Positions 33,255-53,586 of a stretch of DNA of 64,000 nucleotides are shown here, one piece after another (the first letter of the stretch is position 1; every line of letters begins with the position of its first letter). Under the pieces are notes generated by a model. The model was given only the letters and a program-made list of their open reading frames with translations. It ran no database searches and had not been told where the DNA came from. A program made the position numbers and the translations under genes. The stretch lies in contig KV918813.1 of the NCBI GenBank assembly GCA_002049455.2, forward strand, positions 186,001 through 250,000, in the 5' to 3' direction. Origin of the DNA: Porphyra umbilicalis. Lineage: Eukaryota; Rhodophyta; Bangiophyceae; Bangiales; Bangiaceae.

Positions 33255-33510
33255 CTGGCGGGGACGTGCCGCAAAGGACGACCCTCGATGTCTCGGCGCC
33301 ATGTGACCACCTGCACTCAGTGCCTCAAAACGAGGCGTTTCCAGGCCGGAATCCACTCCCGGCACGGCGCCACATGACCACCCGGAAGGTGCCGTGGCGT
33401 CGACCAATAGGAGGCCGGAAATACACCCCCAGAAGGGCCTTACGAGCGGCATTCGGAATTGGGGCTGGCTGGTTTTTGCGGGGTGGCCCGGGTTCTGTGC
33501 CCCTGCATTT
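33255..33510 (+). repeat. Left copy of inverted dispersed repeat
   Basis: Read on the + strand this stretch is related to the reverse complement of 52,945-53,255. In the 47-base core (33,322-33,368 against 53,204-53,158) 37 bases match, including CGTTTCCAGGCCG and CGGCACGGC. Further matches in the same order are AGGAC.ACCCTC outward and ACCAAT and TGTGCCCCTGCA inward, with indels. Confidence 0.6.
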
Positions 33511-33879
33511 CGCGGGTCCCTGGGCCGTCCGGCAGGGGCTCCCACGATGCACTGGGGGAGGTCACTGCTGCGCCATCCGCGGCGTTTGGTTGGTTCATCT
33601 TTACTGTCAGGAGGTGAGAGGGTGAATGCAGAATGGTCTCTGATATCACGGCAGATCGGGATATGGCGCCCGGACCACCAATGCTCCGCCCCTGGTCCGA
33701 TCGGCCGATTGCAGCTCGTTGGCGCGCGCGCTCGCGGGTCGGGATGCTGGCCACCGCCTCTGCTGAGCGCCAGCCTGATGGCCTGCGGGCCCTCCACCTG
33801 GTGGCCTGCGGGCCCTCCACGGTCGTTGTTGGGCCCTCCTCGCTCCGGTACACCCCCCCCACGGGCGCACGCCCGCCGC

Positions 33880-34170
33880 CGTCGCCGCCGCGCCCGCCGC
33901 CGTCGCTGCCGCGCCCGCCGCCGTCGCGGCCGCGCCCGCCGCCGCCGCGGCCGCGCCCGCCGCCACCGCGGCCGCGCCCGCCGCCGCCGCGGCCGCGCCC
34001 GCCGCCGCCGCGGCCGCGCCTGCCGCCGCCGCGGCCGCGCCCGCCGCCGCCGCGGCCGCGCCCGCCGCCACCGCGGCCGCGCCCGCCGCCGCCGCGGCCG
34101 CGCCCGCCGCTGTCGCGGCCGCGGCCGCGGCCGTCGCTGCCGCGGCCGCGGCTGTCGCTGCCGCGCCCGC
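33880..34170. repeat. 21-bp GC minisatellite
   Basis: About 13-14 copies of CGCCCGCCGCCGCCGCGGCC plus G, with T/A variants. A period of exactly seven codons makes it open in several frames (PRPPPPR, GAAAAAA, RGRGGGG), so no protein is inferred. It lies directly upstream of the C48 protease gene. Confidence 0.85.
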
Positions 34171-34369
34171 CGCCGCCGCTCCCGCGCCCGTCGCCAGCCG
34201 CCGGGGCGCTGGTCATTCGTCCCAGCGGCTGCGGCCGCTGGGGCACTGCGTCACCGCCGCGACCGCCACCTCCGGGGAGCCGGCTTGCGGGGCGTCCACC
34301 ACCAACTCCGCCGCTGGCCGTGGCTGCGGCCACCCAAGCGGATGCGGTCCCGGTTTACGGCACGGCGCC

Positions 34370-37300
34370 ATGGCGCGATCTTGGTTGAGATGTGGGTTTC
34401 TCTCCAACCCCTCTGTATTCGTGGAAGGGACGCGTGACTCGCTCATCATGCTCCCGTCCTCTCTACACCCCGTCGTCGTTGTGCCTGGGGATGTGCAGGC
34501 GGTGGGTGACACTGAGAAGGATGACGCACGCGCTGAGAGCGATCTCGGGTTGCACGCAAGGGGCGGTGAGGACGAGGGGAGCGAGAGGGAGGGCGTTGGA
34601 AGTGACCGCGGTGGGGGCGCAGAGGAGGGGGAGGGCGAAGATGGAGGCGACGGTAGCGGCTCTGGCGGACGTGCGGACGCTGGACATGACCAAGAAGAGC
34701 AAGTTGATGGTACGGCCGCCCCAAGACCCGCGGCACCTGCGCCTACCTCTCCTTTGGACGCCGTCGCGTCCCCACAAGATAACAACGGGGCGGCGAACGA
34801 GGTCGCCGATGACGGGGTCACCGACGGCATCGCGGAGGCTGTGGCCGATGCGGTAGCCGGAAACGTTTTCGCGCCGACCGACACTACCAGTGCACGTCGT
34901 CCTTCTGGTCGCGCAGGCCACCCTGCGCTCGATCCGGGCGTGTCGGTGGCTCCAAGACGCCGCACAGGAGCCGCCTCAAGCGTCGACCGCGTGCCGTACG
35001 AGGAGGACGCGCTTGCCAACTTCTACGCGACGGAGCTAAGGGTGGCGGTGGGCTTGACGGCGCGGATGGGCGGGGCTTCGGTGGTGTCGGGCGGTTGTGT
35101 GCACGGTGCCCGCGTTGTGGTCATTTTGGAGGCTTTTGACCCGGTTGTCACATGGTCGGTCTTCTCCGAGGGCACCCTCTTGGCCCTTTGCAGCTGCTCG
35201 GGCGTGCTCGGCAATGGACGCTCGGCGTTTACCGGGGTGGTAATGGAGTACCCGCAGATGCAGGAGGCGCTTAGGCGGAGCAGCACGTGCCGCCACGCGT
35301 CGGCATTGCTGCGGGCGTACGACACCCTCGCCCGCGACATTGGTGCTGTCAACTACGACAGCTTCTTTTCGGCGCTTCCGTTGCTGCTCGGACCACTCGA
35401 CGGCGACGACAACGGCGGCATGACGGAAGCGACCATCACGTATTACGTGACCCAGGCGGGGCTGCGGAAGAACGTGCCGATTTACGTCGTCTGCTACGAC
35501 GGCATGTGGGCGGCCGTCGCCATCCGCCCCTCGAGCAACAAGTTCAAGTTGGCCACGTGCTGCCAACTGTCGTGCAAGTCGCGGCCGTGGGGCTGCATCC
35601 ATGCCAAGGCGGTGAACAAGATCACTCGGGTGGACGCCGAGTCGGAGGCGGTGCGGGCGGAGATGGCAAGGGAGGACGAGCTCCCTCTTGGCCCAGCCGG
35701 CATTCTGAACTCGGAAGACCCGCCTGTTGGTGCGCCTGCCGCCGCCGTCCGAGCCTCTGCTGCGGCGCCCCCCGCGACGCCCACCAAGCCGCGCCAGAGG
35801 CGTCGGGCACGGAATTTGTTTCCGTGCTCGACAGAGGTGAGGTTGTGCGACCAGTACAGCTCGGCCCTCCAACTGCTTCGGAGCGAATCGCAGTACAGGC
35901 GGCTGGGCAAGGTGCATGTGGAGTCCAAGTGCCTTGTCTGCGACGACTCGGCCCGCGGCCACGACGTCAAGACGAACACGGCTGATCTCTACACAATGCG
36001 TGGTCGGCTGGAGGTGGTCGTCGGGACGTGGACCTGCGCCAATGGCCACTTTGTCGACTACGACGGGTCCGAGGACGGACTCTTTGCGGTGGCGGCGGAG
36101 ACGCTGTACGTCCGTGTCTTCTTGGACTCGGTACTGGGCGTGTGCGTCATTGCGCGGTCGACCATGGCGGCGGCGGCGGAGTACCTGGCGAGCGTCTTGA
36201 GGAACATTGGCGCGTACGCGGACGGGGAGTTCGGGCAGAACCGGCAGAGAATCTCCGACGCCGTCGGCGAGTTCACGGAGACGCTCATCATACCCGAGGT
36301 GGCCTTCGACTGCCGGGACTGTGGGGCCGAGGAGGCCACGGGCGGGCGGTTCAAGTGTGTTCTCGGCGACGGCCAAATCTTGGCCGTCCTGCAACAGTAC
36401 ATCATGCCAATGACGAGGCCCGGTATGGACGCGCCGCGCGCGGACATGGTCATCACGTACGCGTGTGCGGTCCGCAACGCCACGGTGCGGGCGGTGATCC
36501 GCCACCGCGTCCGGTCGGGCGCTGTCGACTCCGTCGCCGTCACGGCGAATGAGGTCCTCAAGTTTCGTCCGTTTGAGGCGGCCATGTCCGGAGCGCCGCC
36601 CGCGCCGCCACCACCGCCGACGGAGGAGAGCCGCGGCTTGCGGACGAGGGAGCAGCAGGAGGCCGCATTGCGGTGGTCAGCCGCCACCCTCTTTCACAAG
36701 TTCTTCTATGTGCGCAACCTCAACTCAGCGACGGGTGTCATTGCCGCGGGCGCCATTGACGAAGGGTCTTTGTCGGGCGTCAGTGACGGTGGCAGCGGCG
36801 TCAACTTGGCGACCGGCGACCAGAGCGGCGGAAACGCAGAGCGCTCGTCGGGAAGCGCTTCCGAGTACTCTAGCGACGAGTTGGAGCAGTCCGCGCCCGA
36901 GAGCAGCGTCAACGAGTCGGAGGGGAGCGACCCCCAAGGCGAGGGCGTCCAAGAAGCGCAAGAGCAGCTGGCTGGCGAAGAGCGTGAGGAAGCCACCGGC
37001 GTGGAGGAGCTCGAGATAGTCACCGGCGTGGAGGAGCTCGAGATGGCGCCGAGAACGCGTGACCAAGCCGTCGCGCCCGCCTCACCGCCCGCAACGCCGC
37101 CACTGGTCGCCGATGGCTTGCAGTTTCTGTTGTCACAGCCAGGCGGCGACGACGGGGCGGGCAACGAGACGATGGAGGGCAATGACGGGGCGGGGAACGA
37201 GGTGGTCAACGAAGATGACAAGGCGGGCGACGAGGCCATGGACGGCGATGACGAGGAGGGCAACGAATCGGTCGAGCCCGAGTTGATCCGGGCGGCCGTG

Positions 37301-38113
37301 CCACGCACTTACGACCGGTGGCGTACCCCGGTCGCGTCCGTTGAACCGCTGGCGGCGAGGAGGTCGTTGCCAAATAGCGACGACCCGGTCGCCGTGGACG
37401 TGGCCGACCCCTCTTCTCCGCTGACCCAGCGGGCAGTCGGCGCAACCAACGACGTGGTTGTGGAGCCGCTGACCGGCAGCCTCTTCACGCTCGTGCAGCT
37501 CGACAAGATCCCTCTCATCTTCGACGACTTTGAGCTGCTGCTGCCGTATGAGTGGCTGAACGACGAGATCATCAACGGCATGTCGACTCTCATGCGGTGG
37601 CGCAACGAGCGGACGGTGGCCGCAAACCCGTCCGCTCCCACGCACTACTTCTTCAGCACCTACTTCTACACCAAGCTCTGGCACATGAACGAGTACTCCT
37701 ACAGTATCGTGCAGCGGTGGACCAAAGATTTTGACGTGCTCAACTACGACAAGATCTTCTTCCCCATCAACGTCTCCAACTCGCACTGGATATTGGCGGT
37801 GTTGGACAAGTCTGCCGGCACCATCTCGGTGTATGACTCGCTGGGCGCGCGGAACGAGATTGTCGGGGAGAGCTTGAAGCGGTGGGTGCTCGACGAGGCC
37901 GACTTCTACGACAAGCAGGCGCGCCAGTGGACAGTTGTGCACCCGTGGTGCAGGCAGCAGGAGAACTGTGACGATTGTGGCGTCTTTGCCGTACAGAACA
38001 TGAACTTCATTGCGCGTGGACTGGCCCTATCGACAATGATGCGGAGCACGGCGTACTACCGGCGACGCATGGCAGCTGAGCTGCTGGCCAGTAGCATTGG
38101 CGGCGAGGGGTGA
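34370..38113 (+). CDS. C48 (Ulp1-type) cysteine protease with SWIM-like zinc motif, KDZ-transposon type, 1,247 aa
   Basis: The C-terminal domain (about 1,040-1,247) is a C48 peptidase. NSHW gives catalytic H1139, VYDSLG gives D1156, and QENCDDCGVF gives oxyanion Q1197 and nucleophile C1203. The family normally cleaves SUMO or similar conjugates. Residues 397-411 form a SWIM-like CCQLSCKSRPWGCIH. Around 515-570 a CLVCDD motif is followed by WTCANGHFVDYDG and EDGLF, and about 647 FDCRDCG. This arrangement is common in the N-terminal half of KDZ/Zisupton transposase proteins. An acidic low-complexity linker (about 820-980) separates the halves. The likely partner is the transposase gene 1.2 kb downstream on the same strand. 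All protease residues are intact, so it is probably functional. ATG 34,370 is the first in frame after the minisatellite; a later start is possible since residues 1-200 are low complexity. Confidence 0.85.
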   Translation: MARSWLRCGFLSNPSVFVEGTRDSLIMLPSSLHPVVVVPGDVQAVGDTEKDDARAESDLGLHARGGEDEGSEREGVGSDRGGGAEEGEGEDGGDGSGSGGRADAGHDQEEQVDGTAAPRPAAPAPTSPLDAVASPQDNNGAANEVADDGVTDGIAEAVADAVAGNVFAPTDTTSARRPSGRAGHPALDPGVSVAPRRRTGAASSVDRVPYEEDALANFYATELRVAVGLTARMGGASVVSGGCVHGARVVVILEAFDPVVTWSVFSEGTLLALCSCSGVLGNGRSAFTGVVMEYPQMQEALRRSSTCRHASALLRAYDTLARDIGAVNYDSFFSALPLLLGPLDGDDNGGMTEATITYYVTQAGLRKNVPIYVVCYDGMWAAVAIRPSSNKFKLATCCQLSCKSRPWGCIHAKAVNKITRVDAESEAVRAEMAREDELPLGPAGILNSEDPPVGAPAAAVRASAAAPPATPTKPRQRRRARNLFPCSTEVRLCDQYSSALQLLRSESQYRRLGKVHVESKCLVCDDSARGHDVKTNTADLYTMRGRLEVVVGTWTCANGHFVDYDGSEDGLFAVAAETLYVRVFLDSVLGVCVIARSTMAAAAEYLASVLRNIGAYADGEFGQNRQRISDAVGEFTETLIIPEVAFDCRDCGAEEATGGRFKCVLGDGQILAVLQQYIMPMTRPGMDAPRADMVITYACAVRNATVRAVIRHRVRSGAVDSVAVTANEVLKFRPFEAAMSGAPPAPPPPPTEESRGLRTREQQEAALRWSAATLFHKFFYVRNLNSATGVIAAGAIDEGSLSGVSDGGSGVNLATGDQSGGNAERSSGSASEYSSDELEQSAPESSVNESEGSDPQGEGVQEAQEQLAGEEREEATGVEELEIVTGVEELEMAPRTRDQAVAPASPPATPPLVADGLQFLLSQPGGDDGAGNETMEGNDGAGNEVVNEDDKAGDEAMDGDDEEGNESVEPELIRAAVPRTYDRWRTPVASVEPLAARRSLPNSDDPVAVDVADPSSPLTQRAVGATNDVVVEPLTGSLFTLVQLDKIPLIFDDFELLLPYEWLNDEIINGMSTLMRWRNERTVAANPSAPTHYFFSTYFYTKLWHMNEYSYSIVQRWTKDFDVLNYDKIFFPINVSNSHWILAVLDKSAGTISVYDSLGARNEIVGESLKRWVLDEADFYDKQARQWTVVHPWCRQQENCDDCGVFAVQNMNFIARGLALSTMMRSTAYYRRRMAAELLASSIGGEG

Positions 38114-39356
38114 CGGGGTGGTGGCATTGTCTGAGGGAGGGTCTTGGCGAGCAGCTGGTGACCTTTTTCCACCCGCTTTCCTCTCTCTTCTTGTTAGAAC
38201 ATGTGAAAAACGAACTGCTTACCATTGCGCACCCGCTCTTGCACGCTTCATGCTGGCAGGCTTGGTCCCTGCGGGGGTTCTGGAACTTCGTGTCATGGTA
38301 GGTCGTCGTCTTGCTCAAGCGCGCCGCCGTCCACGTCACGGCCAATGAATGATAGGGGGGCAACCTCGTGACAAGGCATTCAAAAAACTCGAAAAAATGT
38401 TCGAACTTACGACAATTGCATGTACAGCACATGTCGCGACCCTGCCTCACAACCGATCCAGGCGGACGGAGATCATGAGCACGATTTGCAAATGCAACAT
38501 CAATTCCCAGCATGATGAAAAGGTAGCGCCCCAGCATCGGCATTTATGTGATGATGCTCAACGGTGTCGCTCCCTGCCTGAGCGGCCCTTGCGGCCAGAT
38601 CCACCCGGCTGGATCCGTCGAAAGAAGCGCCTCCAGATGCGTGACTCAAGCGCTCAAACAGCTGCCCGCCAACTGCTGTGGCCGTTTGTAAGCGCTCTCT
38701 TGTGTCCGACCGCAGCAGAGACCCCTTGAGAGCTGTCTTGAGTAACCCGCTTCCCCTCCCGCGATACTGATGTGTGCCCCTCCTTCGCGGGTCGGTCGGC
38801 CCACCGACCGGGACAGACGTGGATGGCACTCCTTGCCAGCCGCTTGGTGGCCTTTGTTTCACGTCCCTGTCGGCCCGCCGCCATTGGGGGTTCTGGACGA
38901 CGTCTGTCAGCCCGGTGTGCCTCCTGGCTGCACCCATGAACGGGGGCGCGCGTTTCCAACGCTACCCCCTCTTTGGCCGGCCGTCTCGCACCCCTGTCCG
39001 GCCTTCGCCCACCCGCTTACCTGCCGCCGCCGGCAGACAGGCTTGGCTCGCGACTGTCTCCCTGCCTGCCCCCTCGATGTGCCGAATGGGTGAGTGGGAC
39101 CTCTCCTTGTGTCTGTCGTTGTCGTGCGCTGTGCTTGTGCGCCGCGCTCAGTGCAGCCTGTGCGCCGTGGCCGCCGCAGGCGCGGCCTACGCTTGGCACT
39201 GTGCGGACCGTCTCCCAGCTCCACGTGGTCGACGGCAACCTCCCTCGCTCTGGTGCGCTTCGCTGTTGGCGCCGCGTCGCCCCTCGCCACCTCGACACTG
39301 GCCGGAGGGATCTCCGCGGTTGGACCGCCGTCGACGCTGCCACCCTCTGCGCCACA
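38114..39356. other. Spacer between protease and transposase genes
   Basis: 1.24 kb. The transposase frame is open leftward to 38,973 but has no ATG before 39,357. Cys/Pro/Arg-rich translation there looks non-coding, though an upstream exon cannot be excluded. No repeat or RNA gene seen. Confidence 0.5.
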
Positions 39357-41525
39357 ATGGTCATCGTGGACGCGGACGCGTCGGCCACGGGCGAGACGCT
39401 CGACCACGGGGCGGGTGCTGCTACCTCTGCTGCGTCTGGCATGGTTGACACGCCGTTTCCCGCAGCCGTGGGGAGCAGCGCGGGCTTTTCGCCGGGTGCG
39501 GCCTCCGTCGCGCCGCTCGGCATTGACTACCCCGTCGTCGACGGCATTCCGGATCGGCGGGCCGTGGTAGGCCACGATGCGGCGCTGGGCGCGGCGCTGG
39601 AGGGCCACACGGGAGGACAGAGCGTGCTGACGGGTGGCATCAGCCTGCCAACCAACAAGTCGCCGACGGTGGACGTGTCGTCGGTAGGGGGTGCGGCGCA
39701 GATTGGGGGAGGCGACAGCGGCGTCCAACCTCTGCTTCAACCAGTCGCGCACGCGGTCGTCGACGCCGAGCGCGACGTCTTTTCCAACGCCGACGGCGAC
39801 CATGCCCCGAGCGTTGTGTTAGTCCCCGACGCCGAGTTGGCGGCGGACACCCTGTCTGACGTTGGGCGTGCATCGGTTATCCACGGCCAGGACACGGGCG
39901 GCATGGACGGAAACTACGAGTCGGCGGGCGCGTACGACTTCTACGTGTCCGAGCCGAGCGACGACGACGAGGCCGCTGCCGCGGGCGAGCCGGCGGTGGG
40001 CGACGCAGGGTTGGCGGTTGGTGGTGCCCCTGAGTACGAGCCGGACGCGGCCGCTGTAGACGCGGCGACCCTGGACCAGGCCGCTGCGGTCGGCGGGTTG
40101 GCGGGTGACGCGGCGCTGGCGTCTGGCGCCAACGACCCCTTGTTCGGCCCCATGCCCGACGCCCCGCCCGAGGCGGCTGCTGCCCAAGCTGCGGACGAGG
40201 TGCTTTGCGTCTGCACGGACTTCTTCCCCGAGACGGACGACGAGGATATCGACAAGGATCGATGGATGACGGTGCGCACCTTCATCGCGGCCATGCTTTC
40301 CGAGCCTGTGCTCAACATCTTTGCCGCGTGCAGCGCCATCGACGTGGAGGTGTTGGCGAGGACGCTCATCGCGCGGACGCGGAGCGCCGAGTGGATCGAG
40401 CTCGCCCCGTGTGTGACCCCCGTCGTCTTCGTGTGGCAGTTTCTCTTGCTCGTCCGCCACGCAATGGACGAGCAGCCTGACCTTTGTCAGGCAGTTGGGG
40501 AGCTGATGCTCTTTTGCGTTCTTGCGGAGGAGGAGACGATGGCTCGGTGGGTGGCCAAGGCCAAGCCTGCGGCCAAGGAGTACCGTGACAAGTGGGCGGA
40601 CGGCGATGCCGCCACGTACGACGCGTGGCTGCTCTCCCTTGGCATCCGTCCCGCCATCTCCCACGTCGTCGCCAGAGAGCCGTCCAAGGCCCGCGCGGCG
40701 GAGCAGGCTAACGAGCTGAGGACGGGCCAGTCGTGGCCGGGCCGGCCCGTTCTCCGCGCGTTCCCGGAGGACTCGACGGCGGAGAAGCAGCGGCTCAAGG
40801 CGGCCGGCAAGCGCGAGGAGAAGAAGGACGTCAAGCCCAAGGATGTCAAGGGGTGGGACGTCGACGATTGCCGGCACCACTTCCCGGACAGCGTGCTTCG
40901 TGCCCCCGGTGTCATCACGTTTGTTTGTGGCTGCGGCTACATCATTGGGTTTGAGCTCCTGAGGGAGACCGAGAGCCCCGCCCACGTTGTGGCAGCCTTC
41001 GTTCAGCGCTTCAAGAGGTTCCCTCGCGTTATCTATTTCGACACTGCTTGTCAAGCGCAGCGCAACGCCCTGAGGCGGGTGCCTTGGATGATGGACGGGG
41101 TGTGCACGTCTTGGTTTATTGACAGGCTTCATCGGTGCAACCATACCTGCTCCCCTGTCTTCAATGCCGACCAATACCCGGACCTCACGCGGGGCCACGA
41201 CACGTCGGGGGCCGAGAGGCAACACTCTATTAAAAAGCGGTCCAAGAACAGCCTTTCGTATATGAGGCAGCGGCGGTTTATTGTACGGTCGCGCATTATT
41301 GCAGCACACAACAACATCAAGGTGTCGCAGAGGCGCGAGGCGACCAAGGAGGCCAACCGGGAGCGTATGCCCGGCCGGGCCAAGGTGTCCGTGGAGATCC
41401 AACACAAACCCGTTGAGACGTATTTCCATGACTTTATTGTTGACCATTGTGAGATGGGGGAGAGGTGCCCGTGTAGAGATAGGGTGCAGAATGACGGGGT
41501 AGTCGGGTTGGAGAGGAAGGTGTGA
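39357..41525 (+). CDS. KDZ-superfamily DDE transposase-like protein, 722 aa
   Basis: First in-frame ATG is 39,357. Residues 1-280 are acidic, Ala/Gly/Asp-rich and probably disordered. The core begins near residue 520 with FVCGCGYIIGFELL. It then shows RVIYFDTACQAQRNAL (D562), WFIDRLHRCNHTCSPVFN (D589), and GHDTSGAERQHSIKKRS (E620), followed by LSYMRQRRFIVRSRI. This spacing and the 'yD.aCq', 'DrlH...H..Csp.fN' and 'n/s..E..hs' motifs match the Kyakuja-Dileera-Zisupton group of RNase H-fold transposases. It probably catalyses DNA cut-and-paste. The three acidic residues are all present and the frame is intact, so the copy may be active. No SWIM domain is in this protein; it is in the neighbouring protease gene, so the usual fused protein appears split here. 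Confidence 0.8.
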   Translation: MVIVDADASATGETLDHGAGAATSAASGMVDTPFPAAVGSSAGFSPGAASVAPLGIDYPVVDGIPDRRAVVGHDAALGAALEGHTGGQSVLTGGISLPTNKSPTVDVSSVGGAAQIGGGDSGVQPLLQPVAHAVVDAERDVFSNADGDHAPSVVLVPDAELAADTLSDVGRASVIHGQDTGGMDGNYESAGAYDFYVSEPSDDDEAAAAGEPAVGDAGLAVGGAPEYEPDAAAVDAATLDQAAAVGGLAGDAALASGANDPLFGPMPDAPPEAAAAQAADEVLCVCTDFFPETDDEDIDKDRWMTVRTFIAAMLSEPVLNIFAACSAIDVEVLARTLIARTRSAEWIELAPCVTPVVFVWQFLLLVRHAMDEQPDLCQAVGELMLFCVLAEEETMARWVAKAKPAAKEYRDKWADGDAATYDAWLLSLGIRPAISHVVAREPSKARAAEQANELRTGQSWPGRPVLRAFPEDSTAEKQRLKAAGKREEKKDVKPKDVKGWDVDDCRHHFPDSVLRAPGVITFVCGCGYIIGFELLRETESPAHVVAAFVQRFKRFPRVIYFDTACQAQRNALRRVPWMMDGVCTSWFIDRLHRCNHTCSPVFNADQYPDLTRGHDTSGAERQHSIKKRSKNSLSYMRQRRFIVRSRIIAAHNNIKVSQRREATKEANRERMPGRAKVSVEIQHKPVETYFHDFIVDHCEMGERCPCRDRVQNDGVVGLERKV

Positions 41526-43566: not shown

Positions 43567-44004
43567 ATGTACTCAACTTCAGCAAAGCAGCAGTCCCAAG
43601 TGCCGCGCAGGGGCAGCGACGCCATCGCCGCCAACCGGTCGGCGTCGTCATCGTCCGAGGTGTTCCCGCCGCCGACCTCCGAGGCAGCGCCCGCAGGGCG
43701 GCCGCCAAAACGTCAGGCGGCCTCTTCGCCACGACTCCAAGCAATTCTCAGAGCGCTGGCGTTTCCCCCGCCAAGGCGGGTAGCAGTCGACGGCGAAGCG
43801 AGCCGTTGGCACTATCAGCCCAGCCTTCGTCAGCCTGACGGTCCCCCTCGCTTTTTATCATCCTCCGTATGTCGCGGTAGGCTGCTGGCCGACGAGCCTC
43901 GCACGCCCCGCACACCACCCCACTACTCATTTCCTTCCCTGGCGGTACGCATTGTAAGAGAGGTCGCAGATGGACATACCAGCGTGTCCTTTTCATATGG
44001 CTAG
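43567..44004 (+). CDS. Small hypothetical protein, 145 aa
   Basis: ORF from ATG 43,567 to TAG at 44,002. Residues 1-60 are Ser/Pro/Arg-rich (MYSTSAKQQSQVPRRGSDAI). The C-terminal part has more natural composition (VAVDGEASRWHYQPSLRQPD, PSLAVRIVREVADGHTSVSF). No family was recognised. It lies between the transposase and the nuclease and could be an element-encoded accessory protein, an exon, or chance. Low confidence. Confidence 0.3.
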   Translation: MYSTSAKQQSQVPRRGSDAIAANRSASSSSEVFPPPTSEAAPAGRPPKRQAASSPRLQAILRALAFPPPRRVAVDGEASRWHYQPSLRQPDGPPRFLSSSVCRGRLLADEPRTPRTPPHYSFPSLAVRIVREVADGHTSVSFSYG

Positions 44005-44369
44005 GTACTATCGCGACCCACGTTCCTAAGAGGACAGCGCCATCCAGGCGCAGCCAAATGGTACATCATCTGCCCTGGCGTCGCCAGAATTCTGCCCTAC
44101 CACGCCAGCCGCCAATCCTCCCGACGACTAGGATGGTAGGTTCGCCTCCCTACCCAACTCAACTAGCACCCGGCCATCGTGTGGCTCCACGGCAAAGACT
44201 TGCGAGTGCACGTGCACATGGACCCGATGGCCCTTATGGACAGTGCCGCGACAGAGGAGATACAAGTAAGGCGTGTATGTGAACAAGAAACAAAGCAAGT
44301 ACTCCAATGGTTCTACTACAGTCGACCGCCGCCAATCCCCTCCCTACTCCACCCCCCTCCTTCTCCTCT

Positions 44370-46190
44370 CTATGCCCGCGGCCCGTACAGCTCGTCTGTA
44401 AAGAGAGAGTGGACGTACTCTGACACCTTGGTAGTGATGTGATGACCACCCGGAAGTGGGGGCAACTTGGCCAAGAGCGCCCGACCATCCGCCTCCGAGA
44501 GTCGACCATAGGCGAGCGCCAAAGATTTGGGCGTCTTGTACCCGGCCGCCATGATGACATCGATGCGGACCGGCCCGATCCCGGGCAGAACGCTCATCTG
44601 CAGGGACCAGAGCTGCTGCAGCGTTGCCACTCCTCGCAGCTCCTTCATGTACTCGTCCCACTTCGAGTACGTGAGGACGTCGTTGAAGCCCGGCGAGGCA
44701 CCGTCTGCAACACGGTTGCGCTCGAGCCAGGCCGCCAAGCCGTCGGCCGTTCCAAGCCGGCGGCTGCGGTGCCGCGTCATGGAGGCGTAATACTGCACCG
44801 TCTCGGACATGTTGTCCGTCCCCTTGACGAAGATGTTGTTCTCCACCGAGAGGGAGGCCAGGAAGGCGCCCACGTCCCCGCGCATGGCGGCGTCGCCCCT
44901 CGTCGCAGCTTCCACGCTCCCCTCAATTAAAAAGGTCAGCGACGACCGCCCCGACGCCAACATCCAGTACGACTGTTCGGCGAGCCGCCCGTCTCGCATG
45001 GAAGACACCAAGTCGGCCGCCGTCTTGCGCTCAATTAGCTGGTCGAGGATGAGCTCGGTGCCCGCCGCCGGCGAGCCCGCAAAAGCCCCCGCGCCGGCGG
45101 TGGTCACCCGCGCCACCAGTGTGGCGTCACCGCATGGAAGGCGACGCGTCACGATTCGGCCGGCCAACCCAGGGTTCAGACGGAGCCGAGACAGAAAGGC
45201 GGAGCGCGAAAATCCGCATCCAGTAGTCTCACGATCATCAAAAATGAGGAACACCTCGGAGGCAAGAGGACCAGTCGACGAGGGAGGGAGGGGGTACGTC
45301 AGTGCGATCGGCTGGCTGGCGAGCGCCATGCCACCCGCCCGGCTAGGCAAAGACCCGGCCGTACCTCCAAATGGAGACGCCCGGAGCAGGTCTTCCGCCG
45401 TCTGTTGGTGGGTGCCAACGCGGCTCGACACAGCCGCGTCGACAACGGCGGCTGCAAGCGTCTCGTCCACGGCGGGGCGGGCGTCTTCGTCCACGACAGC
45501 GACGTTGCCGTCGACAGCACCGTGCTCGGCGGCCGGCACGGCCGCCACCGGAAGGAGGGCGTCGTCGCCAACAACGATGATGCCCGCATCGACGGCGTCC
45601 GCGACGCCGCCGGCGCTGTCCGCGACGGCTAGCGGCGCCGACGCGCCCTGCTGGCCACCCATAAGAGGGGGGGCGTCGTCGTCGACAACGATGACGCCCG
45701 GCTGGACGGCGTCCGCGCCGACGATGGCGCTGTTCGTGGCGGCTAGCGGCTCCGAGGCGCCGTCTTGGCTGCCAGGGAGCAGCCGGCGACGAGACGCATC
45801 TTGACTGTCCCGCCGCTCAGCTGCATCTTGATCGCCGCGCGCCGTTGCTGGTCCCTCGCCGGGCTCTCTGCCGCCAGCACATCCGACGGCGGCCGGACCG
45901 CCCCGGCCATTGCTAGGTGGCAGGGCGCGATCCAGCACGCGCTCCTTAAGAGAGGGGGCACCGGCGCCGGCCGGCGCACCAAAGAGCTCGGCCTCAACGA
46001 CCTCGACGGCAGTGAGGGCGGGGATGCCGCGGCCGATGAGCCACTGCAGCAGTGCCACGTGCTCCGCCACAACGTCAGGCACAGGAGGTGCATGCCCACG
46101 CGAAGAAGACGAGGGTAGCGACGGTGGCGGCGACAGCGAAGACCCACGGCCCGCACAGCCGCGCCCAGCACCAGTTCCACGGGCCTCCAT
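44370..46190 (-). CDS. MUS81: MUS81-like ERCC4-family structure-specific endonuclease, 606 aa
   Basis: ATG 46,190 (the frame is open slightly further but only to a TTG). Residues 45-90 (EHVALLQWLIGRGIPALTAV) may be the helical N-terminus. 100-300 is low complexity. The ERCC4 nuclease domain starts near 310: VFLIFDDRETTG with D318/D319-R-E321, LPCGDATLVARV, and LIERKTAADLVSSMRDGRL with the ERK-xxx-D motif at 387-393, all catalytic positions kept. Then FLIEGS, and a C-terminal helix-hairpin-helix region (VLPGIGPVRIDVIMAAGYKT, LALAYGRL). MUS81 with EME1 cuts branched DNA such as stalled forks and D-loops in the nucleus. It lies inside the inverted-repeat block, in opposite orientation to the transposase, so it may be transposon cargo or simply the host gene. 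Intronless. Confidence 0.78.
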   Translation of the reverse strand: MEARGTGAGRGCAGRGSSLSPPPSLPSSSSRGHAPPVPDVVAEHVALLQWLIGRGIPALTAVEVVEAELFGAPAGAGAPSLKERVLDRALPPSNGRGGPAAVGCAGGREPGEGPATARGDQDAAERRDSQDASRRRLLPGSQDGASEPLAATNSAIVGADAVQPGVIVVDDDAPPLMGGQQGASAPLAVADSAGGVADAVDAGIIVVGDDALLPVAAVPAAEHGAVDGNVAVVDEDARPAVDETLAAAVVDAAVSSRVGTHQQTAEDLLRASPFGGTAGSLPSRAGGMALASQPIALTYPLPPSSTGPLASEVFLIFDDRETTGCGFSRSAFLSRLRLNPGLAGRIVTRRLPCGDATLVARVTTAGAGAFAGSPAAGTELILDQLIERKTAADLVSSMRDGRLAEQSYWMLASGRSSLTFLIEGSVEAATRGDAAMRGDVGAFLASLSVENNIFVKGTDNMSETVQYYASMTRHRSRRLGTADGLAAWLERNRVADGASPGFNDVLTYSKWDEYMKELRGVATLQQLWSLQMSVLPGIGPVRIDVIMAAGYKTPKSLALAYGRLSEADGRALLAKLPPLPGGHHITTKVSEYVHSLFTDELYGPRA

Positions 46191-46329
46191 TGTCAAAGAG
46201 AGATGGGAGAAGCGGGTGGTGTAGATAGAGGAGGGGAACGGGGGGGATGGCGCCTAGCGCGAGCGTGGCAGCGTCAATGCCTGCGGGGAGGAGAGGAGCC
46301 CTCGCCGAGGCAGGAGGGGGGTTCGCGAT

Positions 46330-46457
46330 AGGGATGGGCAGGAGGGGGGTGCGGGACAGGGGTGGGCAGGAGGGGGGCGCGGGACAGGGGTGGGAAAGAA
46401 CGGGGTGCGGGATAGGGGTGGGCACGCGGGGGGCGCGAGACAGGGGTGGGAGCGAGT
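46330..46457. repeat. 28-bp minisatellite
   Basis: About 4.5 copies of AGGGGTGGGCAGGAGGGGGG plus CGCGGGAC with variants, just upstream of the MUS81-like start (46,190). Confidence 0.8.
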
Positions 46458-48077
46458 GGCTCCCATATCTGATGAGCGGCGCGCCTCAGACGCTTCGGGA
46501 TGGCCACCGAATCATGGAGATGGCGGCTCGTTACCCCCGCTTCTAGGCACTGCTCGATGGCGGCAGTGAGGCGTCGGAAGAGCTCCCAGGAGCCGCACTG
46601 TATCTCCCCGGAAGCGCCAAGGGGGGCCTTCTTGCCTACGAACGACAGAACGGAGCACTCAAAGGTGAATGCGTGACCCCAAACTATGCCAATAGTACGG
46701 AATCCTCTGTTTCAATATTTGTGCTTTTTGGGTTTGCACGGGGGATGGCGTGCTGACTGCAGTCGAATGCCTCAGAAGGCCCCTCAACCTCGTTCACTGG
46801 GCACGGACCGGGGGGAGGGTGCCTACGCGGTCCCGCGAGCTCATCCGACAAGCTGGCTGCCATTGCTCCCCAGAATGGTCCGCAACGGCTGGAGGCGTCC
46901 AATGACAGCACGGAGTCAGTTCTGGGGGGGTGCGACGCTTGGAGGACAGCAGCGGAGAATGGGCTCGCTCTGGTTCTCTGATCTCGTTGGCCCGCCTGGA
47001 GCGTCTCGGAGGGGGCCCAGCCTCGGCCGATCAACCGTGAACCGTGAACCGGGTACCGCGTGGCAGCGCCCCAGTGTCTCCGAAGGGCGGTTCCGGGAAG
47101 GGACGCGACTGGCCCGGGCGCCAGCAGCTCTGGGCGCCTTGCGTCGTCCATGGTGCCGCCACAGCCATGACCTCCCGCGCCGCAAGAACCGCTGTTCCCA
47201 ACCGCACTGTCATTTGGGCGCGCTTTTGTACCACCGCAGTCGCCGTACCCACCGTCCCTTGCCCACTCGCCACAATACAGTTAGGAGCGCTTCGTCGTGG
47301 CGTGCAGGTGTGGAGGGCGGGGGGCGCCCAGCAGCCGCCACAGCCGCTTGTGGGATGGCATCGGTAGGACCAGTAGGGGTTTGGGGCCGGCACAGAGGAC
47401 CTGGCGGGTTCGACGACAGTCATTGTGATGAGGGATGAGATGGCTTGCAGCTCTGCCGTTTGTGCATGCTCTTCTGCCTGGGTGCTGCCGCTGCCGGCAT
47501 GCCGTGGCTGTGGGAGGGCGCAAGCGCATGGACACAACGCTGCCTCAGCGCCGCAGCCCTCTGGATGGCGGAGCGCCGCTGGGGCACAAGTGTTTCAGAG
47601 CCGAGGTAGGCCCCGCTTCCTGTGTGGCGTCTGGGGTAGTGGCTGCATGTGGCCGGTGGGGTGGTCGCTGGGGTGGCCGACCGCGGGCGCCAGCTGGGGC
47701 TACCGGTTGGGGGTTCCGGCTGGGGCCGACGGCTCGGGGTGTCAGCTCGTGGCGGGATGTGGTAGCTGCTGTGTTGGCCGGGGAGGATGCCAGGGGGCGC
47801 CGGCTGGGGCTACCGGTTGGGGGTTCCAGCGACGGTCGGCCGCTCGGAAGGGGGGGTGCACTGGGGGGAGTAGCTGGTGGTGGAGGTCTTGGGGGCCCCC
47901 GATGTGGGTGCGGATGTGGCCGTATGGAGCGTCTGCTTCCTGGTAGCCATCCATACCCTCCTTCGCCTTGCATACTTGGTTTGTTGACACAGCTATGTGC
48001 TGGCTATCGTATAGAGGAAAAGAGAGAGTAGAGAAGAGACTAAGACAGAACATCGTCAAGCAGGCACTGCATTGTGC
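46458..48077. other. Intergenic, no gene recognised
   Basis: It holds a 25-base direct repeat (core GGGGCTACCGGTTGGGGG) at about 47,692 and 47,809, about 117 bases apart, in a G-rich stretch. ORFs up to 250 codons have no motif. Confidence 0.5.
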
Positions 48078-51000
48078 TCAAGAAAAAGAAACCAACTCCT
48101 TGGACCACACCACGACGGTGCCAATCTGCGTGTCGAGGTCCACAGTCCCCTTTGTGCTGCCCGGGATAGGGTAGCGTGAGCTGTACGGGTAGGAAACGGA
48201 GGCGTCCAAGACGACGTCCAACTCGACGGCCACCAGGTCATTGTCAATCCAGCGCGAATAGATCTTCTTCTTGTTCTTGACCAGACGAGCAGTAGCGACA
48301 GACACGCCGAGCTCCGAGAGCAGCGTGCACGGCGTGCGGTTGGGGACGTTCTCCCAGTTCACTTGCCCACCCGCCGCAGCGCTTGCTCCAACCGCGGCCG
48401 TGTGCTGCTTGACGGCCAGGCGTCTCGAGCGCTTGACAGGCGCGGGAGACGAGGTGTTCGGCTCCGCGGCGGCCCGCCGTTTTCCACCAACGACTAGCGG
48501 TTGGTCTTTTGGAAGTGCGGCAGCAGTGGCGGCAGCGGCAGCGGCGGCAGCGATAGCAGCAGCTTTCTGCCCACGCGTTGAGCGCCTCCCCCCCGAAGGT
48601 GACAGGGCGGCGGCCGTGGCCGCCCCCGGCACGCCGCCCAACGACGGCACGCCTCTACCGTCCGGCCGACCGATGGTCAAAGCGGCCGCCGACGCCGCGC
48701 CGGCCGATGCACTTGGACCGGGCACTCTCGCACGTGATGCAGCCGCCGTGGTCTTCTCCGCTGCGCCGCCCCGGCCGCTCGGCCCTGAGCCACCAGTCGT
48801 GCTCTTCGTCGTCTCCTTGACCGCATGCGCGCCTCCCTTGGGCCTTGGTGTGAGGCCGACGCCTCTCCCACTTTCTTTCTCGGCCCTCGCGCTCGGTGCA
48901 GGGTTGGCAGAAGGGGCGACGCGTCGAGGTGGCAGCGGTGGCCGCCGCGCGGATGATGCAGCGGGCGTGACCATGCTGGCATCACCAGGAGGGAAGCAAG
49001 CACTGCCCGACGATGACGCGGCATGCTTCTTTACCGGCGGTCGCGCAGACGAGGCGGAGAGATGCGTACTCGCAATCTCGCTCGTCGCCGCGACTGGCGG
49101 GGACCCCTCCGCGGAGGAGCGCCCACCAGTGGGTGCACATGCAGCGCCCGAGCATGCCGTCCTCGAGGGAGTCGACGCAGGCGCAGCTTCGGAAGACAAG
49201 AGCCCAGCCGACGCACTACTCGGAAGCGACGGAGATGTAGAGCTCACCGCACCTGCGGGGGTTGCCGACGTCCGCGTCTTCGGCGTCCCTGGATGCACGA
49301 CGCCATCATTGTCCACTTCATGAACTGGTGGAGCACCCACAACAGCAGGGGCCGCAGCACCGACGGCTGCGGCCGCAGCGCCGTTCTGTGCGGCAGCGGC
49401 CGAAGGGGGGGGGGCATCCAATGGAGAAGATCCCGGGGATGACGCCGATGGCACCGAAGAAGTAGCGGGGGCGGATGGTGGCACGGGGCTCGCTGCTGGG
49501 CGAGGCGCCCGCTGTACGACCGCAGATGACGCGGGTGCCGGCGAGGGTGGCGCGGTCGACACGGGTGGTGATGGGGCCGGCGCCGTTGACACGGGCACCG
49601 GTGGGGTAGGCGTCAGTGGTGCAGGAGTCGGTCGGGCAGGCAACTTTGAGGAAGTTGCCGGCGGCGTTGGCGCCGCGAGCGCGGGTGCCGGCAGAGTTCG
49701 CGCCGCCGACGCTGGTACCGTCAGGGTAGGTCCGCTATGAGTGCCCACCGGCCGGGCGCGCGCGGCCGAAGAAGCGGACGCGGGAGGTGACGATACTGAC
49801 AACTCGGCCGAGGATGCGCCCCCGGCCGACGCACTAGAGGTCTTGGCTTTGATGCTCGTGTTGCCCGCCGTGCTCGTCTTGACCGCCGCGCTCGTCTTGC
49901 CCGCCGTGCTCGTCTTGACCGCCGCGCTCGTCTTGACCGCCGCGCTCGTGTTGCCAGCCGCTCGCACCTTGTCCGCCGCGCTTGTGCTGCCTGCCGTGTT
50001 GCCCGCCTCGATTGTGTTGTCCGCCGCGTTGGTTTTGCCCGCCGCTCTCATCTTGACGGCCGCGCTCGTGTTGCTCGCCGCACTCGGGCTGCCCGCCGCG
50101 CTCGTGTTGCCCGCTGCTTTGCACTTGATGGCCGCACTCGTTTTGACCGACGCGCTTCTCTTGCCCGCGGCGCCCGCAGTCGCGGCTCCACTCACCTGGG
50201 CAGGCACGCTCGTCCTGTCGGTGGCTTTGCCCTTGCCCGCGCGCGCCATCAAAGCTGCACGGATGGCGGCACTCTGCGAGGAAGCAGTAGCGGTAGGCGA
50301 TGGCGACGCCACCGAAGCGGTAGCAGCTGCAGAGGCGGACGCGGTAGCCGCTGCAGACGCTGCCCTCATAGCCGCGGGGTGGTCCGGTGGCAGCGGAGCT
50401 GGAAGCTCTTCGGGCGCCAGCCGCGTCAGGTGCGTCGCCTGGGGTGATCCCTTGGCCACCCAGCCGGCTGGTCGGCGAGGCCCGCCCGAAAACTTCTGGC
50501 CCGGCCGGCGATGGTCCGCCTGCTGCTTAGCATGCTGCGCCGGCGTCGGTGCGATGCGCGGCACCGCGCGGAGCCCGGAAAGCGTCCCCAGCTGCGGAGC
50601 GCGTGCCGTTCCCGACAGCAACGGCGTGCCCGAGAAGCCGTAGATATACTTGGACATGGCGAGATGTGCCTCATGCGACAGGCCGGCTAGCAGTAGAAAC
50701 TCAGCCACCCGCTGCTCGACGGTCGACTTGCGCTGGAGAGTTGCCCGCGGCAAAACCGCTCTGACCGTTGGCGTCGCAATCTTGGAGGCGCCTTTGGCGC
50801 GCGCAGCCTCCAGCATCCACTTGTCCACAATGACGCCGCGCGGCCACGGCGCGTCACGAGTAGCCTGCCTTGGCCACCAGGAAATGCACAGGCGCCGACG
50901 CCGTACGGACATGCCGGCGGCCAACGCGGTGTTGCCCTTCGTCAGCGCGTGCCGCAAGCGCGTCAGGCGGTCGGACGACGAGTCAAACATGGTCTTGAGC

Positions 51001-52043
51001 AAGCCCTTGGCGGCGGCATTGGGAATGTAGTCGGCTGGCGGGAAGGCTTGGACGGGAGCGGTTGGCACCCACCCTCGTCGCCGCCGCGGCCCGACGCGGC
51101 TCCGCCGCTGGAGCTGCTGTCCGTCTTCGTCTTCAGCTGACGAGAACGACGAGCTGCCGTCCGAGTCCTCGTCCTCGCCGCTGCTGCTCAAGCCCGTCGC
51201 AGGGGTGACATCGTCGCCATCTTGGAAGGCGCCAGCGGCCGCGGCCGCTGTCGTTTCCGCTGCCGCATGAGCCTTCGTGGAGGCTGCAGGGGCGTCCTCT
51301 CCGTCAGCCGCTGCTAAGACTGCTGCGGCAGCCGCTTGGGAGCGGGCGAGGTCGGCAGAGGCTGGTGGCGGCAGTGGTGTCGGTGCCCCACCGCCACCAA
51401 AGCCCGCCCCAGCCGCCACTGCCGCCCCAGCCGCGCCAGCAGAAGCCGTCGTTGTCGCCCCAGCCGCCGACGTTCGTGCAGCCGCCGTCGCACTCACCCC
51501 GCGCGCCCTGCGCATCGGCGCCTTCGGTGCTCGACCCTGCCGAGTCGTCTCCTCACCCGACCCGGTGCTCCCACCCGACCCGGCGCTAGCACCCGCCCTT
51601 CGAGTGAGGGTCTTCCCTGCGCTCTTATCCACCACCCCACTTCCTTCACCATTCACTCCAGCCATGGGTCTACCCAAAAGCAGGGCTTCAACCGCGTCCG
51701 CAGATGGCTCCGTCCGCAAGGCCAAGAGCGGCCCAGCCGCCGCCATCAAGCAGTTTGCGCTCTCCACGTAGCGGTAGAGCATGCACAACACGTCGCCCGC
51801 GGGGCTCAGCAGCACGTTGGCGTCCTCGAAGACAGGTACCCAAAAGACCTTTCCCGTCGTGTCGTAGCCAGACACGTGGACGTGGAAGTTGAAGTTGGTG
51901 TTGTTCTTGGAGAATAGCTCGATCATCCCCAAGATGTCCACCAAGAGCGCCAAGGTGACGGGGCCCATGCGCCCCGGCCCCACAAAGCCCATCAACTTGT
52001 CATAGGTCTCCTTGGCGCTCTGACGCACTGTCGCAGACACCAT
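48078..52043 (-). CDS. Large Ala/Ser/Thr/Pro-rich protein of unknown function, 1,321 aa
   Basis: Start taken at ATG 52,043 (the frame is open further upstream but through a GA/GC repeat array). Three parts look folded. Residues 1-115: SAKETYDKLMGFVGPGRMGP, FHVHVSGYDTTGKVFWVPVF. Residues about 330-510: KGLLKTMFDSSSDRLTRLRH, WPRGVIVDKWMLEAARAKGA, MSKYIYGFSGTPLLSGTARA. The last 95: VNWENVPNRTPCTLLSELGV, RWIDNDLVAVELDVVLDASV. Between them lies disorder, including about 20 six-residue repeats of the type KTSAAV/GNTSAA near 620-740. No family was recognised. The frame is open for 4 kb despite high GC, so it is coding. As the right-hand gene of the inverted-repeat block, pointing inward, it may be an element protein, perhaps DNA-binding; that is inference only. 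Confidence 0.6.
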   Translation of the reverse strand: MVSATVRQSAKETYDKLMGFVGPGRMGPVTLALLVDILGMIELFSKNNTNFNFHVHVSGYDTTGKVFWVPVFEDANVLLSPAGDVLCMLYRYVESANCLMAAAGPLLALRTEPSADAVEALLLGRPMAGVNGEGSGVVDKSAGKTLTRRAGASAGSGGSTGSGEETTRQGRAPKAPMRRARGVSATAAARTSAAGATTTASAGAAGAAVAAGAGFGGGGAPTPLPPPASADLARSQAAAAAVLAAADGEDAPAASTKAHAAAETTAAAAAGAFQDGDDVTPATGLSSSGEDEDSDGSSSFSSAEDEDGQQLQRRSRVGPRRRRGWVPTAPVQAFPPADYIPNAAAKGLLKTMFDSSSDRLTRLRHALTKGNTALAAGMSVRRRRLCISWWPRQATRDAPWPRGVIVDKWMLEAARAKGASKIATPTVRAVLPRATLQRKSTVEQRVAEFLLLAGLSHEAHLAMSKYIYGFSGTPLLSGTARAPQLGTLSGLRAVPRIAPTPAQHAKQQADHRRPGQKFSGGPRRPAGWVAKGSPQATHLTRLAPEELPAPLPPDHPAAMRAASAAATASASAAATASVASPSPTATASSQSAAIRAALMARAGKGKATDRTSVPAQVSGAATAGAAGKRSASVKTSAAIKCKAAGNTSAAGSPSAASNTSAAVKMRAAGKTNAADNTIEAGNTAGSTSAADKVRAAGNTSAAVKTSAAVKTSTAGKTSAAVKTSTAGNTSIKAKTSSASAGGASSAELSVSSPPASASSAARARPVGTHSGPTLTVPASAARTLPAPALAAPTPPATSSKLPARPTPAPLTPTPPVPVSTAPAPSPPVSTAPPSPAPASSAVVQRAPRPAASPVPPSAPATSSVPSASSPGSSPLDAPPPSAAAAQNGAAAAAVGAAAPAVVGAPPVHEVDNDGVVHPGTPKTRTSATPAGAVSSTSPSLPSSASAGLLSSEAAPASTPSRTACSGAACAPTGGRSSAEGSPPVAATSEIASTHLSASSARPPVKKHAASSSGSACFPPGDASMVTPAASSARRPPLPPRRVAPSANPAPSARAEKESGRGVGLTPRPKGGAHAVKETTKSTTGGSGPSGRGGAAEKTTAAASRARVPGPSASAGAASAAALTIGRPDGRGVPSLGGVPGAATAAALSPSGGRRSTRGQKAAAIAAAAAAAATAAALPKDQPLVVGGKRRAAAEPNTSSPAPVKRSRRLAVKQHTAAVGASAAAGGQVNWENVPNRTPCTLLSELGVSVATARLVKNKKKIYSRWIDNDLVAVELDVVLDASVSYPYSSRYPIPGSTKGTVDLDTQIGTVVVWSKELVSFS

Positions 52044-52209
52044 GTTGACGCCGTCGACGCGTGGGAAGCGCACGAAAGTGTTGTGCAAACAGGGTGAGCG
52101 GACGAGAACGGGCAAGCCACGGCAGGAAAGACCAGCGAGCACGGGCGACGAGGAACGCGACGAGCGAGGCCAATGCTGCAGGCAACGATAACGATGGGCC
52201 CGCGGGAGC

Positions 52210-52560
52210 GCGACGAGCGCGGGCGGGGAGCGGGGGCAACAAGCGCCGGCGGGGGGGCAAACGCAGCAGCGGGCGGGGGAGAGCGGGACGGGCGAGGGCG
52301 GGGGGGCAGCAACAGAAAGCAAGAGCGGGGAGGTGCGCGATGAGCACAGACGGGGGGGGAGAGGCCCCGGCAAATGCGGGGGGGGGAGAGCGCGACGAGC
52401 GTGAGCGGGGGGGGGGCACCGGCAAATGCGGGGGGGGAGAGCGCGACGAGCGTGGGCGGGGGGGGCGGCAACGGCAACTGAGGGCGGGGGAGAGCGCAAC
52501 GAGCGAGGACGGGGGTGCCCGCAACAACAAAAACGAGCGGGGAGGAGCGAAATGAGCGTC
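52210..52560. repeat. Imperfect G-rich tandem array, unit about 50 bp
   Basis: Repeats of GGCAAATGCGGGGGGGG followed by AGAGCGCGACGAGCGTG and a G run. The clearest two copies lie at about 52,370-52,470. On the reverse strand it would read as Pro/Ala/Arg repeats, which is why the upstream frame of the neighbouring gene is open. Confidence 0.7.
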
Positions 52561-52944
52561 GGTAGGGCCAAGCCTGACCAGGACGGCCGGCGAGATGAGC
52601 GACGAGGAGCGTAGTCGACGCGAGGGGGACGAGCGGCAACGAGGAGGAGAGGCCCAAGCACGGGCCTATGGCCAACAGTGCAGGGCGCGCGACGGCCGTG
52701 CCGCACGTGGATGCCGCACGTGGACGACGTGGGTGGACCGTGAGACGGCGCACAAACACCTCGGCCGGGCCCCTCACCCCGGTCAGCGGCCGCCTGTGCG
52801 GGAATCGAGGACCACTGTGGAGGCCAGATCTGGGACGCGAAGAATCAGTGAGCGTGACGGAGGACCGATCACGACGCGACGGCTGGTCCGATTGAGCACT
52901 GCCGCGAGATCGCGGGCCCCGAAGCGGACCCAGCGCAGCGCCCA

Positions 52945-53255
52945 AACGACAGGCGCAAATTGCAGGGGCACACCAACGGCAACGGACCGCTGTAAGAAAG
53001 CACAGCTCCGAATAAATGCATGCCCCACACCCATTCTGCAGGCGGCACGCATAAATTCCGGCCCGGGCACAGGCGCCCCACAAGGGGCCTGTGGTAGGGC
53101 GATTCCTGGCTGCTGATTGGTGGAGCGGCCGGCATGGACGGGAAATGGCACGGGTGTGCCGTGCCGAGTGTGGATAACGGCCTGGAAACGAGGCGATTGC
53201 AGGCCGTATAGGGGGGTGCTCTGTCCGTGCCGGAAGAATGAGGGTAGTCCTGGGC
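52945..53255 (-). repeat. Right copy of inverted dispersed repeat
   Basis: Reverse complement of this stretch is related to 33,255-33,510; core 53,204-53,158 matches at 37 of 47 positions. Relative to the left copy it has about 58 extra bases between the CGTTTCC and TGTGCCCCTGC landmarks. Confidence 0.6.
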
Positions 53256-53586
53256 CGACGTGCCGCGTGTGATTGACATCGTACACTTGGCGTGGTGTCG
53301 GCACAGACGGAACGGTTGCATTCCCAATCAAGCGGATCAATTCTTTCCGTCGAGTACCGGTTAAGCGCCTACTTCCACTCGAGGATTGACTGCTTTGGGC
53401 CTCTAATCTGCCGGCGACTGGATCGTGACCTGTTTGTCAGAGACTGGTGGCCGGCACTGCAACCTCTCTTCCTTCGTGCACATCGTGTACATCAAGCCTG
53501 CGTCCCGCGTTGGGTGTTGTTGTGTGGAAGAGTTTCTTCAACCTGTCGTAGACGCTCTTGTGATTGCACCTGCCAGACTTCTCGCC

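Follow-up and report, generated by a model that had tools for sequence, protein, structure and literature searches.

The closest described counterparts of the element reported here are the giant KDZ transposons of algae; in the available part of the Ectocarpus report they reach up to 30.3 kb, and a Chlamydomonas KDZ element of 31.7 kb is cited there (PMC12477816). In the available part of a second source, Kyakuja families are described by 7-bp duplications and CA..TG ends with no inverted repeats, and 8-bp duplications are given for Zisupton and for Zisupton-1_PGr, a Dileera lineage (PMC12730594). The DNA analyzed here, called the window, is a stretch of 64,000 nucleotides from Porphyra umbilicalis (GenBank assembly GCA_002049455.2, contig KV918813.1, positions 186,001 to 250,000, forward strand), and all coordinates refer to it. 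Within it lies a DNA transposon, some 20 kb long, that moves as a unit with four genes, A, B, C and D. Homologues of one predicted transposase occupy two open reading frames (ORFs), A and B, and gene C encodes a MUS81-like nuclease. Its boundaries are the following:

33270..53256, no strand: complete transposon, 19,987 bp, from end mapping; collinear with three other copies
33263..33269, no strand: left target site duplication GACGTGC, 7 bp; same design in the copies on C11 and C60, for which there are empty sites
53257..53263, no strand: right target site duplication GACGTGC, 7 bp
33270..33369, plus strand: left terminal inverted repeat, about 100 bp, begins CGCAAAGGACGACCCTC
53157..53256, minus strand: right terminal inverted repeat, about 100 bp, begins (reverse complement) GGCCCAGGACTACCCTC

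The genome searched comprises 83.8 Mb in 665 contigs, which are indicated by C-numbers. Phycobilisome linker genes gave 12 matches on eight of these contigs, including four on a single plastid-like contig, as would be expected of a red algal host. A query with the left-end DNA gave four further long matches, on C11, C475, C60 and C114, and the right-end query located the partner end at the correct spacing for C11, C475 and C60; C114 carries a decayed, shortened relative. Thus, three other full-length copies exist, of the kind that an earlier note on this DNA had proposed to look for. Their gene block is collinear with that of the window element, at about 70-84% DNA identity over aligned pieces, and they share 98.2-99.3% identity with one another across 20-21 kb, the C60 copy being about 0.5 kb shorter near the right end; all four full-length copies encode the MUS81-like gene. 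The ends are CG..CC, with imperfect inverted repeats of about 100 bp. Those of C11, C475 and C60 reach local alignment scores of 76-81, against at most 36 for shuffles and internal pairs; the window ends score 46, against at most 31 for 500 shuffles and 285 internal segment pairs, and at that scoring just a 33-base core aligns. The inverted copies of modest identity that the same note had described at the two ends are therefore real, and its termini, 33255 and 53255, have been moved to the exact ends at 33270 and 53256.

Insertion is documented by the flanking DNA. The 7-bp target duplication is perfect in three copies: in the window, in C11, flanked by CGGATGT on both sides, and in C60, flanked by ACCGCCA on both sides; C475 meets the contig end, and the four visible duplication bases all agree. 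A target duplication, expected earlier to be of 8 bp or similar, is thus present with a length of 7 bp; 8 bp was rejected because the eighth base is mismatched in C11 and C60. The joined flanks of C11 match eight uninterrupted paralogous sites, at 96-97% identity across the junction, plus others of lower identity; those of C60 match a different repeat, with 35 of 41 rows spanning the junction and stopping 53-57 bases beyond it. One empty junction was read for each of these copies, and it holds a single 7-mer, versus two when filled, exactly so in C60 and with one mismatch in C11. These empty sites with a single 7-mer indicate that C11 and C60 are insertions, and not a duplicated host block. 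For the window copy none was seen, its flanks matching other places in the genome over 60 bases at most. The check for an empty site proposed at the outset was therefore positive for two of the other copies.

The transposase sequence is distributed over the first two genes, as listed here:

34370..38113, plus strand: gene A, 1247 aa, cysteine-rich N-terminal transposase half fused to a C-terminal Ulp1 (C48) protease
35915..36142, plus strand: CxC4 cysteine cluster in A (6e-5 and 2.6e-5, below the Pfam cut-off)
36368..36370, plus strand: codon of the candidate first catalytic Asp, A residue 667, motif GDGQ, invariant versus L070 and L061; putative role
37550..38080, plus strand: Peptidase_C48 (Ulp1) domain of A (Pfam 4.2e-22)
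39357..41525, plus strand: gene B, 722 aa from the first Met, C-terminal transposase half; presumed start codon
41040..41042, plus strand: candidate second catalytic Asp of B, motif YFDTACQ (3-way and 7-way alignments)
41214..41216, plus strand: candidate catalytic Glu of B, motif SGAERQHS (3-way and 7-way alignments)

The division is revealed by a single-ORF relative, L070 on C4, of which one 1123-residue stretch aligns collinearly, first with A (35480-36706, 8e-31) and next with B (40248-41477, 3e-77). A contains the cysteine cluster, the candidate first Asp and, at its C-terminus, the Ulp1 protease; B contains the candidate second Asp and Glu. The earlier note had predicted one DDE transposase gene next to a C48/SWIM protein: transposase sequence is indeed present, but divided between A and B, and the C48 domain is confirmed in A (4e-22), SWIM being a by-eye reading of Cys/His residues in A that Pfam does not list.

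The same order, i.e. first half, Ulp1 and then B 1.0-4.1 kb further on along the same strand, is found at 31 or more loci (classification printed 32 split rows, two of them from C15). At 17 or more unsplit loci both halves lie at most 560 bases apart; here both halves report equal open-frame length in 8 of 17 cases, as in one ORF, and Ulp1 was found within 7 kb at none of the 17. Locus classes were built from 85 B, 71 first-half, 17 MUS81 and 87 Ulp1 rows; the split and unsplit counts are lower bounds, because the genome searches scored 76 candidates out of 207 in one case and 70 out of 155 in the other. A third arrangement, in which the B half is followed directly by Ulp1, was observed at seven loci (C200, C162, C99, C12:357361, C356, C26 and C135:3778), and another 17 B rows have no clear pattern.

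It is reasonably probable that A and B are two polypeptides that jointly build the DDE active site. Less probably, the transposase is undivided, and in some transcripts the first half of A is joined to B by splicing out a long intron that includes the Ulp1 part, so that splicing would select the protease form or the transposase form. The constant strand and order of A and B at the 31 loci would fit such splicing, and so would several features that speak against two separate proteins. The open-frame lengths of first half and Ulp1 disagree at 21 of 31 split loci, due either to decay or to separate reading of the parts; the N-terminal extension of B is under little constraint (omega about 0.71), compared with an omega of 0.10, i.e. 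strong constraint, in the B core; and in C118 a stop codon occurs shortly upstream of the B core. The weak constraint and the C118 stop make the start codon of B, and with it the two-protein reading, insecure; moreover, AlphaFold gave no usable fold for the B core (pLDDT, predicted local distance difference test, 33.6). Conversely, at 10 of the 31 split loci, window included, first half and Ulp1 share one open-frame length, A being a single frame through the protease. In addition, a one-base indel of C475 versus C60 and C11 sits about 23 bases upstream of the first Met of B, and no indel follows that Met between C475 and C60 in the stretch read, so the frame below is kept; finally, inspection of nine copies by eye showed no acceptor-like site in common where the B core begins. 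The spliced, undivided enzyme is accordingly regarded as rather unlikely, and B more probably has a start of its own.

The third gene lies on the opposite strand:

44370..46196, minus strand: gene C, MUS81-like nuclease, 608 aa (profile, phmmer and structure matches)
44778..45239, minus strand: ERCC4 nuclease domain with intact GD..ERKxxxD (PF02732, 2.4e-14)

The ERCC4-family nuclease announced by the earlier note is therefore present (2e-14), and it can be placed more closely. A phmmer search of PDB with gene C gives MUS81 at 4.8e-11 versus XPF at 0.012. The structural model of gene C is weak (mean pLDDT 49.9), but its fold matches are clear, the first 17 all coming from MUS81 complexes (chain A, C or E), with XPF and EME1/EME2 chains ranking below; the matched chain is named MUS81 for 2ziu, 2zix, 4p0p and 9f98 and is presumed to be so in the remaining structures. 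XPF identity was rejected, the host XPF being a separate gene on C17. The ERKxxxD motif is kept in six of six aligned family members and GD in five (C191 has GE). Gene C thus likely encodes a catalytically active enzyme with branch cutting of the MUS81 type.

Genome search with gene C returned 17 matches, corresponding to 15 loci once neighbours were merged. At 9 of the 31 split loci the nuclease is 2.4-3.1 kb downstream of B, in convergent orientation on the opposite strand. The carriers are eight of the nine best-scoring B matches, the contig of the ninth match (C516) ending 401 bases past B; the ninth carrier is C88, whose B match comes in two pieces. Outside these loci, the C143 nuclease is accompanied by a D and by a first half, two fragments on C473 and one on C12 are more than 12 kb away from any B, and for C191 a transposase was not found in the 6 kb fetched downstream. 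The C238 nuclease and its neighbour, an undivided KDZ-like ORF of another kind (1270 aa or more; L061, L037), lie tail to tail, which suggests a second association, or a module swap between elements. The overall distribution looks as if a single branch of the family had gained the nuclease once, C238 being a second association.

Genes A, B and C are under constraint between diverged copies. For the ERCC4-to-HhH core of the nuclease, omega is 0.23 (0.16-0.31) for window versus C475, 0.30 (0.21-0.40) for window versus C181, 0.37 (0.20-0.66) for C181 versus C248 and 0.38 (0.28-0.49) for C181 versus C238. Nuclease and transposase distances are correlated over seven elements (r 0.92, 2 of 5040 permutations), a test made without C475 and C60, near-copies of C11, and without C516, which has no MUS81. 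As a separate observation, between C181 and C248 (L064/L066, L034/L033) the synonymous distance (dS) of the transposase, 0.56, is much higher than that of the neighbouring nuclease, 0.15, as if parts of the element had recombined.

Other results weaken the case for a nuclease tied to transposition. There is none within 12 kb at 22 of the 31 split loci; the nuclease N-terminus has omega values of 0.40 to 0.78, with weak constraint in some pairs (0.78, 0.45-1.29); in the near-identical pair C475 and C11 omega is 1.1 for MUS81 and 1.4 for KDZ, with too few changes to test selection; and when C238 is added the distance correlation becomes r 0.63 (146 of 40,320 permutations). The nuclease could then be captured cargo with no role in transposition, kept for a benefit to the host, for instance as its sole remaining MUS81. 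Indeed, a six-frame genome search found no MUS81 outside the gene C family, although a many-intron host gene could escape such a search, and the ERCC4 and EME1/MUS81 C-terminal searches gave XPF on C17, the gene C family and one 86-aa ORF below cut-off; the nuclease-free related loci are likewise repeated in the genome. However, many diverged nuclease copies are each convergent beside B, with distances that follow the transposase, and host benefit would need just one or two intact copies; a purely host-serving cargo is judged improbable. The weakest proposal, that the block is a host segmental duplication, is suggested by its presence in several copies and has a negligible probability, as the copies end exactly at the inverted ends with 7-bp duplications and the empty sites of C11 and C60, in unrelated repeats, already refute it.

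Two further searches concern relatives of these proteins. An EME1-type partner was sought with PF21292, which gave 10 matches, all below cut-off, nine from the gene C family and one from an 86-aa ORF. The viral_contigs set was screened with two short peptide patterns from each of two alignments, MUS81 and B; either screen gave 36 pattern matches, and no relative was among them.

The fourth gene corresponds to the huge low-complexity protein already noticed at the beginning:

48078..52706, minus strand: gene D, large protein with conserved blocks in mostly low-complexity sequence; tentative start codon
50352..51119, minus strand: conserved block of D, query for the genome search

No Pfam family was found for D. 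Its conserved block has 57 matches in the genome, and placement relied on 52 places from these 57 rows, two C181 pieces being merged and four second pieces omitted. At 21 of the 31 split loci D lies 6-16 kb beyond the downstream end of B in convergent orientation, as against 0 of the 17 unsplit ones, and among these loci no case of D on the same strand as B was seen; D is the third core gene, and it is lineage-specific. Whole-length omega values for D (0.37-0.39) were set aside, since low-complexity stretches align poorly. Sequence resembling the right end was also observed beside D-like genes on C273, C244 and C66 (L012, L013 and L014), within larger repeats of 98-99%; perhaps they belong to another relative, recently multiplied.

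Taken as a whole, the locus is best explained as a 20-kb transposon with a two-ORF transposase and a transposon-borne, MUS81-like branch nuclease, a reading to which a probability of roughly 0.7 can be assigned. The element inserts with a 7-bp stagger; the products of A and B would together form the transposase, and the Ulp1 part probably strips SUMO marks, as expected from its family. The nuclease would cut branched transposition DNA, such as flaps and forks at strand-transfer joints, or recombination intermediates that arise as the sister chromatid is used to refill the donor gap, and such cutting would raise the copy gain of a very long element. That it acts at exactly this step, on branched DNA left by transposition, is a doubtful assignment, and the action on excision or gap-repair intermediates suggested in the earlier note is likewise a hypothesis. 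Since nuclease-free relatives are also repeated in the genome, the nuclease would help and not be required. A tentative combined proposal is that the DDE site is divided over two proteins, one carrying a fused SUMO protease, and that cutting requires the two to assemble; that one branch added a MUS81-type nuclease for branched intermediates; and that the host may have no other MUS81. The element as found suggests that repair enzymes can be captured by large transposons, and that such transposons may work with a divided transposase.

The assignment to KDZ, also proposed in the earlier note, is less firm than that to a transposon, which is established by termini, duplication, copies and empty sites. 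Profile scores count against it: B matches PF18758 (KDZ) with E-values of 0.0037 and 0.0022, for two lengths, and the C60 copy with 1.8e-4, all below the curated cut-off, and the profile has no match in L064, L069, L066, L061 or L070. The match of B starts only from position 62-71. For PF18717 (CxC4), A scores 6.2e-5 (23.3 bits) and L070 7.4e-6 (26.3 bits), with a cut-off of 26.9 bits. In the proposed DDE triad D667 of A is invariant in the 3-way alignment, and the D and E of B are invariant in both the 3-way and the 7-way alignments, with no usable fold; its motifs presumably resemble those known in KDZ transposases. The 7-bp duplication agrees with the 7 or 8 bp expected for KDZ elements. 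Kyakuja proper was rejected, having CA..TG ends without inverted repeats, against CG..CC and inverted repeats of about 100 bp here, as was Zisupton proper, which has 8-bp instead of 7-bp duplications (criteria from the available part of PMC12730594). The element therefore appears to be a kind of giant KDZ-like transposon, with KDZ profile scores below the cut-off.

The surroundings of the element include one further internal feature and two neighbouring ORFs:

33870..34190, no strand: short repeats by the left end

A long minus-strand ORF (28568-33316) overlaps the left end, and a host ETF-alpha ORF (53425-54741, start approximate) sits just beyond the right end; the element sits between the two, in what may be their common promoter region.

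The movement of very long DNA transposons entails large gaps and extended repair tracts, and an element with its own branch-cutting nuclease makes the way they cope with these testable; near-identical copies and empty sites provide a usable experimental system. A transposase divided over two genes at 31 loci would also be an unusual control of cutting. In the literature search, the matches listed included no transposon with a MUS81/ERCC4 gene and no divided DDE transposase; an earlier description may exist. In Tn7, a DDE transposase works with a second nuclease, as TnsA and TnsB; TnsA is a restriction-like nuclease, and the Tn7 DDE domain is not divided. With MUS81-EME1 (PDB 2ziu, 4p0p, 9f98) gene C shares the ERCC4 domain with GD..ERKxxxD plus HhH, the MUS81 chain being the closest; unlike that complex, it is transposon-encoded, has a long low-complexity N-terminus, and no EME1 partner gene was found for it.

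Among transposons, the giant KDZ elements of Ectocarpus and Chlamydomonas resemble the window element in size class, in the combination of a transposase with extra genes and in their algal hosts; in the available part of the report the accessory genes of the Ectocarpus elements are mostly of unknown function, and neither a MUS81-like nuclease nor a divided transposase is described there (PMC12477816). Kyakuja, Dileera and Zisupton may share KDZ-type motifs and the cysteine cluster with it, and Kyakuja does share the 7-bp duplication; the window element differs from those families, as far as the available part of the source describes them, by imperfect inverted repeats of about 100 bp, CG..CC ends and two transposase genes (PMC12730594). 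KolobokP with a His-Me homing endonuclease is another case of a DDE transposon with a second nuclease, the families being unrelated according to the available part of its description (PMC9587614). The fungal KDZ elements with TET/JBP dioxygenases similarly combine a transposon set with a captured cellular enzyme acting on DNA; in the available part of that source the enzyme carried is a dioxygenase, whereas the window element carries a branch nuclease (PMC12730594).

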